This document shows, piece by piece, positions 11,737-17,792 of a stretch of DNA of 64,000 bases. The notes under the pieces were generated by a model. That model did not search any database. It worked only from the letters and a program-made list of their open reading frames with translations, and was not told where the DNA came from. How positions within the stretch are numbered: the first letter of the stretch is position 1; each line of letters begins with the position of its first letter. Source of the DNA: Halorhabdus sp. CBA1104. Its GTDB lineage: Archaea; Halobacteriota; Halobacteria; Halobacteriales; Haloarculaceae. A program made the translations under genes and the position numbers. The stretch covers positions 1,860,001-1,924,000 of the forward strand of contig NZ_CP033878.1 in assembly GCF_009690625.1 (NCBI RefSeq). Reading direction: 5' to 3'.

Positions 11737-13608
11737 TCAGTCGCCGGCCCCGTCGTCGATAGCATCCGGACGGACGCCCGTCTTTCGAGCGAGTTCGCTA
11801 AGTCTGTGGTTGTCAACGAGCGTCACACCGTGTGTCATGGCGGCGTCGAACGCAGCGGGATCGATCGGGTCAGTCGTCACCAGAATCGCCGAGTGATCCC
11901 CCTCGCGACGGTTTCGCTGGGCGATCAGTGCCTCGACTCTCTCAGCCGTCACCGGGACGCCCCGACGACGGACCCACAACAGGAGTGTGGGGTCGTCTCT
12001 GGATCGAGTTGCGATCGCGTCGGGTCCGGCTTCCTCGAGCAAGTCGACGGTCCAGCCCAGTTCCTGCCAGATGCGCCCCACTGCCGCTGTTGTACCGTCG
12101 TCGTCGAGTGTCTGGAGACGACGGACGGACTGGCGCTGGTTCGTGTCGATGTTGTCGGCTGTGCCCGCCTCGAATGCCTGTCGGGCTGGCGCCGAGTCGT
12201 GGCGTCCGACGTCCCCGACCGAGGTGTCGGTACACTCCAGTGTCGGGGCTGTGATGGGCTCGTCGGGCACCGCCGAGGCACTGTCCGTGTCGTCGTCCCC
12301 ATGCTTTTGACGCGCTATCGCCTCGATTTGGGACCGGATATCGGTACGCCGCTCGTGAAGGGCGTCGCGATCTTCAGGTGTGAATTCCGCTGCCGTGGCG
12401 AGGGCTCGGTCGATCGATTCGCGTGCATCGTCGTAAGCCGACAGCGCTGCATCGAGTTGGCCGTCGTCCCGAAGTCGCTGGGCCTCCTGGGAGCGTCGCT
12501 CCGCGGCACGCTGCTGGGCGACGACCAGCCCCTCGACGACTGTCGCCAAGCGGTCACGGAGGAGCGATCGCTCGCCAGCGAATCGGTCGTCTGCTCGTCC
12601 CCAGTCCAGTTGGACCAGCGCGCGAAACCGCTCGAATGCGTCCCGCCAGTGGTCGACGGCTGCCAGTGGATCGGCAGCTCGCTCGGCCGCTCGCTGGGCG
12701 GCGATCGCACGGGACAACGGGGACACACTGAGCCGGTCGAGATCGTCGTCGATTGCCGTCACGTGCTGTCGAACGCTGGCAGCCATCACCGAGGAAAGAT
12801 CCTCGCGACTGCGAAGGGACTGGAACGTCGCTCTGGCACGCTCGAAGTACTCGGCGGCTCGTTCGTAGCGTTCCTGCCGCCAGTGATTCTCGGCCCGAGT
12901 GCGAAACGACCGGGCGCGAGCAAGCGACAACCGCCGGCGTTCGTCACGGCGGCGTGACTCGAGGCGTGCCAGCCGGCCGTTCATCCCGCTTGCTGGGGCG
13001 TCGTAGGCGGCCGCCGTCTGGCCGGCTTCGGTTAGTGAGCTCTCGGCCCGGTCGAGTGCCCGCCGTGTGGCCTCGAACGCGCCGGTCGTCCGGTTGCGGG
13101 CAGCCTCCGCCAGGGCTGTCCGGGTCTCAGAGAGGAGTCGGTCGAACCGGATCCAGGCCTGGGCACCCTCACGAACCCGCCGTGCGACGAGTTCGGCGTC
13201 GATTCCTACAGGGAACCACGTCCAGTGTTCGGTCTCCCCACTCCAGCACTGGACGGCGACGTGTCCCCCACCCCGCTCGACGGTGACGTGTTCGATTGTA
13301 TCGAGTGCCACATCGTGGATCTGATCGCTGTCATCCACTGTTGCACCGCCGACTGCCATCACGATGCGGCGGCCGGTGATCGCGACGAGCGCCCGATAGC
13401 CAGACCCAGGAGAGTAGGTCGTCTCTGTCCGCCCGCGTTCGTAGACGATCCCACGGTCGCCACTCGGGAACACCACCCGCGGCTGCTCGGCCAGCCCGAA
13501 GTGGGCTTCGAGCGGTCGGTCGGCGAGATACCCCTCCCCGAACAGCCCCCCGCGACCGGTCTCCGTCAGGAGTCGCTCGTCGACGACCTCACGGTCGTCG
13601 GATTGCAT
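11737..13608 (-). CDS. PH-like / helical-repeat / Mrr-like nuclease-fold protein
   Basis: This acidic protein has 623 residues. Residues ~30-150 look like a PH/GRAM-type beta domain (VVFPSGDRGIVYERG... YRALVAITGRRIVMAVGG). Residues ~150-450 are Arg/Ala/Glu-rich helices with TPR-like segments (ERAAEYFERARATFQSL, ALSAYDDARESIDRAL). Residues ~510-623 resemble the Mrr/restriction-endonuclease fold: GRIWQELGWTVDLLEEAGPDAIATR, then LLLWVRRRGVPVTAERVEAL. In active Mrr proteins the second segment carries (Q/E)xK; here it reads WVR, so catalysis may be lost. It could be a DNA- or lipid-linked surveillance protein. The ATG at 13606-13608 (MQSDDRE) is preferred. No methylase or other defence gene is adjacent. 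Confidence 0.7.
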   Translation of the reverse strand: MQSDDREVVDERLLTETGRGGLFGEGYLADRPLEAHFGLAEQPRVVFPSGDRGIVYERGRTETTYSPGSGYRALVAITGRRIVMAVGGATVDDSDQIHDVALDTIEHVTVERGGGHVAVQCWSGETEHWTWFPVGIDAELVARRVREGAQAWIRFDRLLSETRTALAEAARNRTTGAFEATRRALDRAESSLTEAGQTAAAYDAPASGMNGRLARLESRRRDERRRLSLARARSFRTRAENHWRQERYERAAEYFERARATFQSLRSREDLSSVMAASVRQHVTAIDDDLDRLSVSPLSRAIAAQRAAERAADPLAAVDHWRDAFERFRALVQLDWGRADDRFAGERSLLRDRLATVVEGLVVAQQRAAERRSQEAQRLRDDGQLDAALSAYDDARESIDRALATAAEFTPEDRDALHERRTDIRSQIEAIARQKHGDDDTDSASAVPDEPITAPTLECTDTSVGDVGRHDSAPARQAFEAGTADNIDTNQRQSVRRLQTLDDDGTTAAVGRIWQELGWTVDLLEEAGPDAIATRSRDDPTLLLWVRRRGVPVTAERVEALIAQRNRREGDHSAILVTTDPIDPAAFDAAMTHGVTLVDNHRLSELARKTGVRPDAIDDGAGD

Positions 13609-13936
13609 ACCCCTTCGTTCGGACGAGACACCTATTGTTTTTCGGTTGACGCGTCGATACGAGCCCGGCAATCAGGCGTGTCGGCCTGCCGGCGGACGTC
13701 CGTCTGACAGGCATTTACGTATCCGTCGAGGAAAGACTGGATCGATGCCACGGCTCGTCCTTTCGCTGCCGACTGAACTCGGTGCCGGGACGGACACCCG
13801 CCCCGACCGTTCGAGGCGGTCCGATCCGGTGTCGAGTCACCACTCGATCGATCGGCCCAACGGAGACGACGCCACGGAACAGCCCCGTATCGAACAGTGG
13901 CTGGCTTGCTGGGCCGATTGAGCGAGTCTCGATCGA
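13609..13936. other. Intergenic stretch with one doubtful micro-ORF
   Basis: These 328 nt lie between two minus-strand genes. A 58-codon plus-strand frame at 13745-13921 (MPRLVLSLPTELGAG...QWLACWAD) is open, but its Arg/Ser/Pro-rich middle and lack of recognisable homology make it doubtful. A short AT-rich run (TATTGTTTTTC, about 13632-13642) lies upstream of the PH/Mrr gene and may be its promoter. Nothing else was recognised. Confidence 0.4.
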
Positions 13937-15085
13937 TCAGTTCTCGGTCATCCGAGCGGCGATCCGCTGGGCACCGATCGTCGCCGCCAGATTCGGCTCG
14001 TCGGGTGCGATGGCTTCGACGTCACGATTGAGGGCGTCGCTGAGACGGTCTTCGAACTCCTCGACGATGCCGGGGATACAGGCCATCCCGCCAGTGAGGA
14101 CGATCGGCTGGTCTAAGGCGAGCTGATAGACCTTCATGTGATCGTTGGCGAGTTCGGCCAGGAAGGTGTTGGCAAATTCCTCGACGGCCTCATCGAGGTA
14201 GGCGTCACAGGCGTCCATAACCGATCGCTCGATCGTGAACTCGTGGGCACCGCCGCCGGGCTGCTGGATGACGTCCGTAAACGGCTCGAAGTTGTTGAAA
14301 TCGGCGTGCTGTTCTTTGTATTCCCGAGCCGTCTGGGCGTCGATGTTGACCCGCCCCTGGGTCTCGCTCTCGACGTTCGTGGCGATCCGTCGATCGACTT
14401 CGTTCCCGGTGACTGAGCCGGTCGTAAAGGGCGTGAGTTGTTCGCCACGGCGGTAGGCAGAGGCTTCCAAGTTCGTCGAGCCCATGTTGACCGCGAGGAA
14501 GATCTCGTTGATCGCTTCGAGCCCATCACCGAAGGCGGGAATCGCGCCACACAGCGATTCGGGGTAGCTCTGGATGAAGTGCTCGCCGATACCGCTGCCC
14601 TCGACGACCGACTGGAGATTGGACAGGCCGCGCTCGTTGTCGATCGTCGGGATGGCGTAGACGACACCGCTGTTTGCCGGGATGTCGTTGGCCTCGATGA
14701 CCGAGGTGAAGAACCGCTCGGTCAGTTCGGCACCGCGTTCGTCTTCCGGGAGGCCAGAGCGAAGCATGAACTGAACGCGATCGGGGTACTGTTGGGCGGC
14801 TTCCGCTCCGTAGAGCACCTGTTCTTCGCCACTAATGGGGTCGTCGTAGGTCGCCAGACAGGTCAGCGTCTGGGTGGTGTCCAGGCCACCTTCGCGGTCG
14901 GGTTTCGCGAGGACCGTCCGCGTACTCCCGAGTTTGACGCCGACTGGAACCGGCTGCTCGTCCGGCGTCGATTCCGCTGCATCTGCCGTCGAATCCTCGA
15001 CAGTATCCTCGTCTGTGTCCGGTTGTGGCTCTTCTTCGTCCTCCTGTTCGGCTGGTTCGTCTGTTTCGGCATCCTCGACACTCAT
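13937..15085 (-). CDS. Actin/MreB-superfamily protein (salactin-like)
   Basis: This 382-residue actin/Hsp70-fold protein has a disordered acidic N-terminal tail of about 45 residues. Phosphate-1 loop is VGVKLGST (48-55), phosphate-2 loop is AVNMGSTNLEA (about 198-208) and the adenosine motif is VLTGGMACIPG (319-329). Its closest known relative by pattern is salactin, the dynamically unstable haloarchaeal actin that grows from cell poles. In canonical actins the two phosphate loops begin with Asp; here they have Lys51 and Asn200, which is notable. A TATA-like TTATATAC about 28 nt upstream suggests a leaderless message. It lies beside a FlaD/E-domain gene and a ParA-CheW pair. A filament role in cell organisation is inferred. 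Confidence 0.85.
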   Translation of the reverse strand: MSVEDAETDEPAEQEDEEEPQPDTDEDTVEDSTADAAESTPDEQPVPVGVKLGSTRTVLAKPDREGGLDTTQTLTCLATYDDPISGEEQVLYGAEAAQQYPDRVQFMLRSGLPEDERGAELTERFFTSVIEANDIPANSGVVYAIPTIDNERGLSNLQSVVEGSGIGEHFIQSYPESLCGAIPAFGDGLEAINEIFLAVNMGSTNLEASAYRRGEQLTPFTTGSVTGNEVDRRIATNVESETQGRVNIDAQTAREYKEQHADFNNFEPFTDVIQQPGGGAHEFTIERSVMDACDAYLDEAVEEFANTFLAELANDHMKVYQLALDQPIVLTGGMACIPGIVEEFEDRLSDALNRDVEAIAPDEPNLAATIGAQRIAARMTEN

Positions 15086-15109
15086 ACGATGGGCGATTGT
15101 CCCCGCGAC

Positions 15110-15118
15110 AGTATATAA
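15110..15118 (-). promoter_or_regulatory. TATA box of the actin-like gene
   Basis: On the minus strand GTTATATAC lies about 28 nt upstream of the ATG at 15085. This is the spacing expected for a leaderless haloarchaeal transcript. Confidence 0.6.
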
Positions 15119-15198
15119 CTACGTGTCGAAAAATCAGCGCTGATACCGACGGACGGAGGCGGCCCGTCGGGGGAGAGAGTCAGAAGCGAGTCAGTCAC

Positions 15199-15705
15199 TC
15201 ACTGCATCGAGGTGAGTTTGGCGATGTGGACCAGGCTCAGCAGGTGGTCGTCGATCGACAACTCCGAGTGGTCGCTGCCCGTCCCCTCGAGACCGAGCAA
15301 GTAGTCTTCGAGGTCGTCGCTGACGTCCTCGGTGATCCAGCCGACTTGGGCGTAGTAGTCGACGGCCTCGTTGGCCCCCCGAAAGCCAGCTTTCTCCAAC
15401 AGGAACGAGAGCCATTCGAAGACGATCAATTCGCCGGCGTAACTCTCGGGCAGTCCGTGCAGATACGGCTTCTCCAGTTCGCCCCCGACCATACTCTCTA
15501 AGGGCAACAGTTGGCGGTACAGTTGAGACCGGTAATCCCCATCACCGAGGACATCGCCGCCGAGTCCGCCACCGCCGGTGTCGAAGCCGGGCGTCGGGGC
15601 CTCTTCCTCGACATCTTCGTCGCCGACCGGGATCGTGGCCCCGCCGCGCTCACGGGCCATCTTCCGGAGTTCGTCGAGGTCGTAATCCTTCGGGTTGATC
15701 GTCAT
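15199..15705 (-). CDS. Stand-alone FlaD/FlaE (ArlD/E)-domain protein
   Basis: This 168-residue protein is acidic and Gly-rich at the N-terminus. Residues ~78-139 match the archaeal FlaD/E domain. The landmarks are YLHGLPESYAGELIVFEWLSFLLEKAG, then EAVDYYAQVGWI and EDYLLGLEG. In archaella, FlaC/D/E link the motor to the chemotaxis adaptor CheF. This copy is outside any arl operon and lacks the long coiled coil of ArlD, so it may be a free adaptor. It sits between the actin homologue and ParA-CheW. Upstream, TAACAGAGAGT occurs twice 27 bp apart (see findings). Confidence 0.82.
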   Translation of the reverse strand: MTINPKDYDLDELRKMARERGGATIPVGDEDVEEEAPTPGFDTGGGGLGGDVLGDGDYRSQLYRQLLPLESMVGGELEKPYLHGLPESYAGELIVFEWLSFLLEKAGFRGANEAVDYYAQVGWITEDVSDDLEDYLLGLEGTGSDHSELSIDDHLLSLVHIAKLTSMQ

Positions 15706-15706
15706 G

Positions 15707-15744
15707 ACTCTCTGTTACCGATACCTACAGGCTACTCTCTGTTA
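15707..15744 (-). promoter_or_regulatory. Direct repeat TAACAGAGAGT x2 before the FlaD/E-domain gene
   Basis: On the minus strand TAACAGAGAGT occurs at 15734-15744 and again at 15707-15717, exactly 27 bp apart. The second copy abuts the start codon. The distal copy begins with a TATA-like TTTAACAG. The pair could be promoter plus operator. A perfect 10-bp palindrome CGTACGTACG lies further upstream at 15761-15770. Confidence 0.4.
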
Positions 15745-15900
15745 AAGGTTGCAGTCACGTCGTACGTACGTCTGACAGGCCGAAGTCCGGGATTTCGCCA
15801 CTAGCGCGGTTGGTGATCGCCGCCCGTCGGTGATTTCAGGATTTGATACCCGCGAGCGTATTTTTATGTGGTGTCGAACCTGAACGTTGAACAACTGACA

Positions 15901-16812
15901 ATGCCCAGCCAGACATCGGCCCGGACGCCAACCGTCTGCGTGACCAACGCAAAGGGCGGAACGGGCAAGACAACCATCGCGATCAACGTCGCCGGGGCAC
16001 TCAACGAGCGCGGTCACGACGTCCTGTTCGTGGATATCGATCCACAGGGTAACGCTACCGAAGGGCTCGGACTGCTCGATGCCTACGACGCCGAACCGCC
16101 GACGCTGTTCGACGTCCTGACCGACCACGCGGTACGGACCTCGGTCGAGGAGTTGATCGTCGAACACGAAGAGATGGACGTGTTGCCGAGTTCGATCGAT
16201 CTCCTTCAGGCCGAACACGAACTGACGATCGCCGACCTCCTCGCGTGGGCCAAGACCGACGACTCGGTGGCAGTCGACCCAGCCGCCCTCTCTCAGATGG
16301 CGATCAATATCACGCCCGAGGCGATCACCGGCGGGCACGCCCTCGATGCCCTCGATGAGACACTGGCGCAAGTCGAGACGGAATACGATTACGTCATCAT
16401 CGATTCGCCGCCGTTCTACGGGAAGCTGACCGACACGGCGATTTACGCCGCCCAGAACGTGCTCGTACCGGCACTCACGGAGGCGACGTCCGAGCGAGCG
16501 ATCGAGTTGCTCATCGACCAGATCGCCGCCCTGGAGGGACAGGTCGACATCACTGTCGATACCGTTGGCGTCGTCGCCAATCGGGTCGAACAGACCAACG
16601 AAGACGCGACGATGCTATCGTGGCTCAACGAAGTGTTCGAGGACTACCCGCTCTGGGAAGTGCGAAAGCGCGTCGCCCTCCAGCGCGCGTTCTCGGCCGG
16701 CACATCTATCTTCGCCTACGAACAACAGGTAGACATGGAAGACGTGTTTCTGGATATCGCCAAACAGTTCGAGACACACTTTGAACGGGAGCCCCAGGAG
16801 GTGACAGCATGA
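15901..16812 (+). CDS. ParA/MinD-family ATPase
   Basis: This 303-residue deviant-Walker ATPase has KGGTGKTT at residues 18-25 (signature lysine plus P-loop), FVDIDPQGN at about 44-52 and VIIDSPPFYGKLTD for the Walker B/switch region. Such proteins position plasmids, chromosomes, chemosensory arrays or archaella by forming gradients on DNA or membrane. The next gene encodes CheW and overlaps by 4 nt (ATGA), so the pair is translationally coupled. That suggests cargo related to chemotaxis. The ATG at 15901 was selected; a TATA-like TATTTTTATG ends about 33 nt before it. No ParB or CRISPR/plasmid gene is nearby. Confidence 0.92.
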   Translation: MPSQTSARTPTVCVTNAKGGTGKTTIAINVAGALNERGHDVLFVDIDPQGNATEGLGLLDAYDAEPPTLFDVLTDHAVRTSVEELIVEHEEMDVLPSSIDLLQAEHELTIADLLAWAKTDDSVAVDPAALSQMAINITPEAITGGHALDALDETLAQVETEYDYVIIDSPPFYGKLTDTAIYAAQNVLVPALTEATSERAIELLIDQIAALEGQVDITVDTVGVVANRVEQTNEDATMLSWLNEVFEDYPLWEVRKRVALQRAFSAGTSIFAYEQQVDMEDVFLDIAKQFETHFEREPQEVTA

Positions 16813-17792
16813 GCGACGAAGACGACGAGCGGATGGACCGCGCCCGCCGCATCCGAAACCTTCGGGAAGGTCGTCGTGGCGGCGACGAACCAACCGACGA
16901 GTCACCTGACACGGACGAGGATCGCGACGAGCCGTCGGAATCTGCTGGTTCGGACGGGCAAGACGACGCCCACGCGGATGGCGAAGATGCGACGAACGCT
17001 GGCGACGACGAGGGTGCAAGGTCAGAGCCAGGCGACGGCGAGGAGTCGGCGGGAAGCGGTACCGAAACGCCTGGCACTGACGAAAAGCCCGACACCGGCC
17101 GGTCGATGGCGGAAGATCGCGGCGAGGGTGTGACAGCCGGGACTGACCCGGCCAAAGAGAGTCGAGCCGGCCCGGAGTCGGACGAGGAAGCCGTATCGGC
17201 CGCCCAGGCGGCCGCCCAGGCGGCAAGTGAGTTCGAAGGCGACGGAGCGGTGTCGATGGACGTCGAGGAGGCGGTTGGCGAGGCCGCATCCGGTGAGGCG
17301 TCGACGGACGAAGCTGGGGCCCCGGCCGGGACGACAGTCACGGATGCAGACGTTGTAGAGCAACACGAAGAGGAGACCCGCGTCCTGGAGTTCCGTCTCG
17401 GCGAGGAGCTGTACTGTCTCGATATCACCTACGTCGAGGAGATCGTGCGCGAAGAAGCGATCACTCGCGTGCCAAACACGCCCGCGTACGTCAGCGGCGT
17501 CGTCGACCTCCGCGGCCAGATTACGACGATCCTCGACCCGAAAACGGCCGTAGATATCGCGGGCGAGAGCGACGACCGGCTCATTCTGGTGTTCGATGCC
17601 GACACGTTCGACGATCACGGATACATCGGCTGGCTGGTCGACGAAGTCAATCAGGTCACGCCGATCACAGAGTCAGAAGTCAAAGAGTCACCGATCGACG
17701 AACCGTACATCAACGGCGTCATCGAGCGCGACGACAAGTTCGTCATCTGGACGAGTCCCGAAATGGCTCTGGACGTCGGGGCCGACGACTAG
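16809..17792 (+). CDS. CheW-domain protein with long acidic N-terminal tail
   Basis: This is a 327-residue protein. Residues 1-190 are low-complexity Asp/Glu/Gly/Ser with an AAQAAAQAASEFEGD helix near 135-150. Residues ~195-325 are a complete CheW fold: RVLEFRLGEELYCLDITYVEEIV, RVPNTPAYVSGVVDLRGQITTILD, then YIGWLVDEVNQV. CheW links receptors to the CheA kinase. Typical CheW proteins are about 150 aa, so the tail doubles the length and may be the handle bound by the coupled ParA-type ATPase. The gene starts inside the ParA stop codon (ATGA). No cheA, cheY or receptor is in this window. Confidence 0.92.
   Translation: MSDEDDERMDRARRIRNLREGRRGGDEPTDESPDTDEDRDEPSESAGSDGQDDAHADGEDATNAGDDEGARSEPGDGEESAGSGTETPGTDEKPDTGRSMAEDRGEGVTAGTDPAKESRAGPESDEEAVSAAQAAAQAASEFEGDGAVSMDVEEAVGEAASGEASTDEAGAPAGTTVTDADVVEQHEEETRVLEFRLGEELYCLDITYVEEIVREEAITRVPNTPAYVSGVVDLRGQITTILDPKTAVDIAGESDDRLILVFDADTFDDHGYIGWLVDEVNQVTPITESEVKESPIDEPYINGVIERDDKFVIWTSPEMALDVGADD

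Follow-up and report, generated by a model that had tools for sequence, protein, structure and literature searches.

In a stretch of 64,000 nucleotides from the chromosome of the haloarchaeon Halorhabdus sp. CBA1104 (hereafter the window), a ParA ATPase and a CheW protein are encoded as a true couple. The CheW protein begins with a ParA-docking-like tail that it shares with the partner proteins of plasmid ParAs, and this suggests that a plasmid-type partition ATPase has been redirected to chemosensory arrays. ParA and CheW3, as the CheW encoded at 16809-17792 is labelled in this analysis, are most likely an array-positioning or segregation system, because of the analogy with the tail of ParG and with ParP of Vibrio. 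A second pair, formed by the actin-fold protein salactin and a candidate for the archaellar protein ArlD, lies next to them on the other strand. All functional statements made below rest on sequence, gene order, and analogies from the literature.

The window is part of a complete chromosome of 2.63 Mb. At a distance of about 350 kb lies a separate che-arl locus with cheY, cheC, cheD, arlCE, arlF-J, cheW, cheB, cheA, and cheR. Motility and chemotaxis are thus expected to be functional, and the CheW of the window is an additional one. The genome has four CheW-domain matches; CheW3 is among them and one other is CheA. The initial annotation had described four genes in this part of the window. Their open reading frames are confirmed at the positions given, and family searches support each of them. 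The features are as follows.

13937-15085, minus strand: salactin, an actin-fold filament protein of 382 residues with an acidic N-terminal extension (PF25229, NF053533)
15199-15705, minus strand: ArlD (FlaD) candidate of 168 residues (PF04659; C-terminal FlaD/E domain at residues 78-165)
15706-15867, no strand: divergent intergenic region of arlD and parA, 162 bp, with the presumed promoters of both genes
15868-16812, plus strand: ParA ATPase with Walker A KGGTGKTT, GTG start as listed
16809-16812, plus strand: ATGA stop/start overlap of parA and cheW; a 4-bp overlap is seen at most homologous loci
16809-17792, plus strand: CheW3, a CheW protein of 327 residues with a ParA-docking-like tail (CheW domain and tail motif)
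16827-16877, plus strand: CheW3 tail motif ERMDRARRIRNLREGRR, residues 7-23, predicted helix at 4-19 (conservation, AlphaFold)
16878-17372, plus strand: acidic linker of CheW3, non-conserved, predicted to be disordered (alignment, AlphaFold)
17373-17783, plus strand: CheW domain of CheW3, DLRG motif retained (Pfam, alignment, AlphaFold)

The salactin-ArlD pair on the minus strand and the ParA-CheW3 pair on the plus strand diverge across the 162-bp gap. This gap presumably holds the promoters of both arlD and parA; a simple pattern search for promoter elements in it gave no convincing consensus.

ParA, CheW3, and the shared tail

A Pfam search places the ATPase in the ParA family (AAA_31/CbiA), and its closest solved chains are the ParA/Soj segregation proteins. 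It had been annotated as a ParA/MinD ATPase; the first half of that name holds, and a MinD identity is rejected because the nearest proteins are ParA/Soj. The deviant Walker A motif KGGTGKTT is invariant in the ParA alignment, as is the C-terminal basic motif, which is present in the protein of the window. An alternative ATG start is possible at 15901. The nearest named relatives are found in H. salina (93% identity) and H. amylolytica (83%).

CheW3 comprises a conserved tail, an acidic linker of variable length that has no invariant positions, and a C-terminal CheW domain. The CheW domain spans residues 192-320 and scores 80.7 bits with PF01584 (cut-off 23.5). L234, R235, and G236 of its DLRG motif are invariant in the alignment. 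The tail has the consensus [DE]RM[DE]RAxRIRxMREGxR, in which four arginines, one alanine, and one glycine are invariant in 30/30 sequences. AlphaFold predicts a helix at residues 4-19, disorder up to about residue 182, and a CheW fold at residues 189-325.

A scan that used ParA alone returned 57 named haloarchaeal loci and one bacterial match. ParAs of the Haloarculaceae type are followed by CheW3 in 48/48 loci, mostly with an overlap of 4 bp; one of the 48 (L165) is cut off by the end of its contig within the linker, so that the tail is covered and the CheW domain is not. At the other loci, two ParAs are followed by another type of CheW and seven by a plasmid-type partner. ParA and CheW3 stay paired where salactin and ArlD sit elsewhere, including Halorientalis and Halapricum relatives. 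The figure of 44/44 for ParA-CheW in the survey of long loci carries no weight here, since CheW was a criterion in choosing those loci. The coupling that had been proposed from the ATGA overlap is thus upheld by the scan.

CheW3 might be a mere extra signalling coupler with a long tail, and its co-translation with ParA might be incidental. Its CheW domain does keep the DLRG motif and the overall signature, and in Halobacterium an accessory CheW, CheW2, binds receptors without binding CheA (PMC3579733). This explanation is very unlikely, since the tail motif is strongly conserved and common to ParA partners that have no CheW domain, and since every Haloarculaceae-type ParA found has CheW3 behind it.

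A second ParA-linked type of CheW, possibly of independent origin, has repeats of a RADRIRRRR-like motif and an acidic linker that is very long. It is found in a Haloferacaceae-like genome (L106, G251), a Haloferacaceae metagenome-assembled genome (MAG), and an unplaced Halobacteria MAG (loci L106, L200, and L208 in all). Among the papers covered by a literature search, none describes a haloarchaeal ParA-CheW pair.

Outside the Haloarculaceae, many homologues of this ParA are plasmid-encoded in haloarchaea (107 plasmid records, none reaching 60% identity). Nearer relatives are encoded on a contig of Halococcus thailandensis (64%, L176) and on a MAG contig (L210). Behind these relatives, the next gene, which in most cases overlaps parA by the same 4 bp, encodes a protein that is usually 130-190 residues long. 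These plasmid-type partners have the same or a shortened CheW3 tail at the N-terminus, and a C-terminal domain that is unrelated to CheW and, given the plasmid setting, may bind DNA. The Halococcus partner carries the long form DRMGRADRIRNTREGRR, and most of those on the nearer plasmids have the shortened forms SRADRLRRRR, DRASRLRSRR, or SRSERLRQRR. One ParA relative, on a plasmid of Haloplanus sp. GDY1 (L157), lies beside gas vesicle genes and has no recognisable partner gene behind it.

In a search with the CheW3 tail profile, the Halococcus partner ranked first among 1,894 proteins (E = 3e-8). The pattern R[AS]xR[ILV][RK] occurs within the first 40 residues of 13/22 partners and of 8/1,872 other open reading frames; the 22 partners include the CheW of G251 and are mutually related, which makes the counts non-independent. 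When 146 whole genomes were searched with a tail model, 17 strong matches resulted, all of them at the beginning of the gene that follows parA; most belong to families that trained the model. Two weaker matches (G104, G031) also lie behind a parA.

In the ParA tree, the CheW3-linked ParAs form a single clade (support 97/84) that is nested among ParAs with a plasmid-type partner. The second CheW-linked type (L106, L200, L208) forms its own clade (100/100). Both clades, together with the Halococcus and MAG sequences, sit inside the plasmid-type ParAs; the branching order among Halococcus, MAG, and the two CheW types is not resolved. Because the CheW types nest in this way, a count of the fewest changes suggests that the direction was from a plasmid-type partner to CheW, once or twice. 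We infer from the sequences that CheW took the place of the cargo domain in a plasmid-type partner whose ParA-binding tail was retained. The tree of CheW domains is poorly resolved and gives little on the source of the CheW3 domain.

The likeness of the tails could also be convergence on a ParA-binding peptide and not the trace of a domain swap. The motif is about 17 residues long and arginine-rich, and the more distant plasmid partners share just RAxRLRxRR or less. However, the Halococcus partner has the long form behind a ParA of 64% identity, the order of the two genes and the 4-bp overlap are the same there, and in the ParA tree the CheW type is nested among the plasmid type. Convergence is therefore improbable, and if it had occurred, a common ParA-binding function would still be implied.

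The partner gene of a partition system encodes a DNA-binding (centromere-binding) protein. Here it encodes a CheW domain, at every Haloarculaceae-type locus whose contig extends that far, and for this reason ParA is filed as a relative of partition systems and not as one of them.

Salactin and ArlD as a pair

The protein encoded at 13937-15085 had been recognised as actin-like, and it can now be identified as salactin itself. It scores 613 bits with PF25229 (cut-off 27), and its score with the equivalog model NF053533 exceeds the curated cut-off (593 against 400), which places it in the salactin family. Its upstream neighbour at 15199-15705, at a distance of 113 bp, matches Arch_fla_DE (PF04659) with 88 bits at residues 78-165 of 168, and it has the N-terminal motif [TS]INPRDYDLDELRKMA in addition to this C-terminal FlaD/E domain. 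Haloarchaeal genomes generally encode two FlaD/E proteins, a long ArlCE and a short ArlD, and exactly one of each is present here. Since this is the only short PF04659 protein in the genome, what had been described as a stand-alone FlaD/E adaptor retains its domain assignment and becomes the ArlD candidate of the genome, partnered by salactin. Its alignment with the protein whose gene adjoins arlCE in Halobacterium-type genomes covers residues 1-168 and takes in the N-terminal motif. In the FlaD/E tree, the ArlCE domains split from all ArlD-type proteins at 96/97, and the deep order is unsure. A third FlaD/E-domain protein (149 residues, MPLDPRHHDVAEL...) is encoded at L117:7510-7959 and also in L121 and L123, within one genus; its gene adjoins a histidine kinase gene and is near salactin.

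The gene arlD immediately precedes salactin, in the same orientation, in 37/38 Haloferacaceae-like loci examined. At the remaining locus (L237), which holds a second copy of salactin, the FlaD/E gene is on the downstream side. A plain tblastn search detected ArlD beside salactin in 37/39 loci of other families, which are the 38 Haloferacaceae-like loci plus a single locus from a further family; the same search detected, at these 39 loci, none of nine other genes from this part of the window. The ArlD-salactin pair thus exceeds background synteny. Nine Haloferacaceae-like genomes have the order cheD-arlD-salactin inside the che-arl locus, with cheC or cheY-cheC upstream where the stretch reaches (L116, L117, L119, L121, L123, L223, L234, L235, L236). 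This order fits a transcription unit ArlD/HVO_1202 of H. volcanii that is listed with CheY/C/D (PMC13286277), and HVO_1202 would be salactin. Halobacterium is an exception. No arlD lies beside salactin in nine loci of its family, and arlD is in the arl operon.

Salactin is present in 110 sampled genomes. A FlaD/E match occurs in 109/110 of these and in 106/183 genomes without salactin (relatedness uncorrected). The single salactin genome without a FlaD/E match (L142, G002) is about 86% complete. Several genomes have two or more salactin genes (G224, G265, G182, G280, G148, G192).

In H. volcanii, ArlD (FlaD) is polar and archaellation depends on it (PMC6509185); in H. salinarum, FlaD has a DUF439 (CheF) protein as a binding partner (PMC2666748). 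Dynamically unstable salactin filaments that grow from the cell poles are known from H. salinarum only (PMC10746226). Salactin was published as a DNA-segregation actin with poor synteny; the poor synteny and the absent motility phenotype come from Halobacterium (PMC10746226). The H. salinarum protein and that of the window belong to the same family by curated models, and the difference is that here, and in most other haloarchaea examined, salactin is directly behind arlD. From this gene order, a link of salactin to the archaellum is likely. None of the papers covered by a literature search links salactin with the archaellum.

The published role raises another explanation, in which chromosome partition at low ploidy is the task of both salactin and the plasmid-type ParA, and CheW and ArlD either are bystanders or connect partition with motility. 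In low phosphate, loss of salactin by deletion disturbs the distribution of DNA (PMC10746226), and this ParA is related to plasmid ParAs and keeps the invariant C-terminal basic motif. On the other hand, the partner slot and the tail belong to a CheW protein at all 48 Haloarculaceae-type loci, and the constant neighbour of salactin is ArlD, within the che-arl locus in nine genomes. A DNA-segregation cluster is accordingly quite unlikely.

The four-gene block

The initial annotation had joined the four genes into one pole-linked positioning system. In 44 Haloarculaceae genomes with this ParA, ArlD and ParA are divergent neighbours in 35/44, salactin is beside ArlD in 35/44, and the whole block is present in 28/44. 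Separation of the genes in other haloarchaea, which the initial annotation had named as refuting, applies to neither of the two pairs and applies in part to the quartet. Among 44 long named ParA-CheW loci, 33 retain ArlD and 28 retain salactin; an oxidoreductase gene and a decarboxylase gene (MvaD) that lie downstream of CheW, on the other side from ArlD, are retained in 30 and 27. Since these flanking genes are kept about equally well, the adjacency of ArlD and ParA does not exceed background family synteny, and the block was not accepted as a single conserved unit. What stands out within this ordinary family synteny is each of the two pairs.

That salactin, ArlD, ParA, and CheW are one integrated pole-organising machine that places both arrays and archaella is rather unlikely. 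All parts relate to polarity or motility, and all 44 genomes with this ParA also have salactin and ArlD, in 28 of them as the full block. Each of the two links is nevertheless broken in 9/44 genomes, ArlD-salactin is present without ParA-CheW in other families, such as in Haloferacaceae-like genomes, and the retention counts match the background. What remains of the earlier proposal is that both modules point to the spatial organisation of motility; a single joint machine is not supported as proposed. A functional link between the two modules is plausible, as both concern the motility apparatus.

On the other side of salactin, a protein of 644 residues is encoded at 11737-13671 of the window (minus strand). 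It has a C-terminal Mrr-type endonuclease domain, and homologues are found in 16/44 loci.

Proposed explanation and known systems

The explanation that we propose has two modules, ParA-CheW3 for chemosensory arrays and ArlD-salactin for the archaellum motor, and as a whole it is fairly probable. It builds on what is observed here, namely the gene identities, the two conserved pairs, the shared tail, and the ParA phylogeny. To these it adds, as proposed steps, binding, ATPase stimulation, DNA binding by the plasmid partners, positioning of arrays and motor, and a physical contact of ArlD and salactin. A ParA whose nearest outside relatives are largely on plasmids would move or hold chemosensory arrays instead of plasmids. 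The C-terminal CheW domain of CheW3 would insert into the receptor array, and its arginine-rich N-terminal helix, on a disordered tether, would bind ParA-ATP and trigger hydrolysis, like the ParG tail on ParF. Arrays would thereby be spread and inherited, or be held at one site, as with ParC/ParP of Vibrio and PpfA/TlpT of Rhodobacter. As to origin, the partner of a plasmid-type ParA may have retained its ParA-binding tail while its original C-terminal domain was replaced by a CheW domain. In the second module, arlD upstream of salactin probably forms one transcription unit with it, and the dynamically unstable, pole-growing salactin filament most likely acts with the polar archaellum motor through ArlD. 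A bolder joint claim is offered tentatively, as somewhat short of probable: a plasmid partition machine became an array segregation machine by exchange of the cargo domain, perhaps twice (in the Haloarculaceae, and separately in the Haloferacaceae-like genome, the Haloferacaceae MAG, and the unplaced MAG), and the archaellum has its own actin filament in salactin, by way of ArlD.

Several observations weigh against this explanation. The more distant plasmid partners have an abbreviated motif or none, the most distant ones lacking a clear motif, and they score low with the tail profile. No Pfam, PDB profile, or Foldseek match was found for the C-terminal domain of the plasmid partners, and its AlphaFold model has low confidence (mean predicted local distance difference test score 63). 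Deletion of salactin in H. salinarum left motility unchanged and disturbed DNA distribution in low phosphate (PMC10746226); the genus in which this was observed, Halobacterium, has salactin unlinked from arlD. Array and archaellum positions are not interdependent in H. volcanii (PMC6509185).

Some known systems resemble ParA-CheW3. ParP of Vibrio joins an N-terminal ParC-binding domain by a long linker to a CheW-like (AIF) domain at the C-terminus (PMC5706961). ParC/ParP and the pair described here both combine a ParA-family ATPase with an adaptor that has an N-terminal part, a long linker, and a C-terminal CheW-like domain. ParA-CheW3 differs in that it is archaeal, its linker is acidic and not proline-rich, and its tail is short, helical, and arginine-rich; further, its ParA is closest to haloarchaeal plasmid ParAs, its genes are outside the che locus, and it has no known polar anchor. 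We infer by analogy that ParA-CheW3 works like ParC/ParP, with binding of the tail to the ATPase suggested by the plasmid partners; the likeness is one of anatomy, and membership of the same family is not claimed. In Rhodobacter sphaeroides, the ParA-like ATPase PpfA positions cytoplasmic arrays together with an array protein, TlpT, that binds it, and the system has been likened to plasmid segregation (PMC5706961). The partner of PpfA is a chemoreceptor, whereas the tail of ParA-CheW3 sits on CheW. In ParF/ParG of TP228, the flexible N-terminal tail of ParG binds ParF and carries an arginine finger (PMC7308502). This system and the haloarchaeal plasmid ParA cassettes share with ParA-CheW3 an ATPase-partner pair in which the partner has an arginine-containing N-terminal tail. 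The C-terminal part is CheW in CheW3, ribbon-helix-helix in ParG, and an uncharacterised domain in the plasmid partners. Haloferax volcanii needs the ParA/MinD-type proteins MinD2 and MinD4 to place its arrays and archaella (PMC11588486), whereas the protein of the window is ParA-type and has a partner gene for an array-domain protein.

The known players in the placement and inheritance of arrays in archaea are MinD2 and MinD4, both from a single species. With its identifiable docking-like tail, a ParA-CheW pair makes the question of array placement directly testable. ParA-CheW3 would also be a traceable case in which a DNA-partition ATPase was re-aimed at a protein cargo. The pairing of arlD with salactin, including inside the che-arl locus, means that the published view of salactin, with a role in chromosome segregation and none in motility, merits re-testing in species where the pair is intact.

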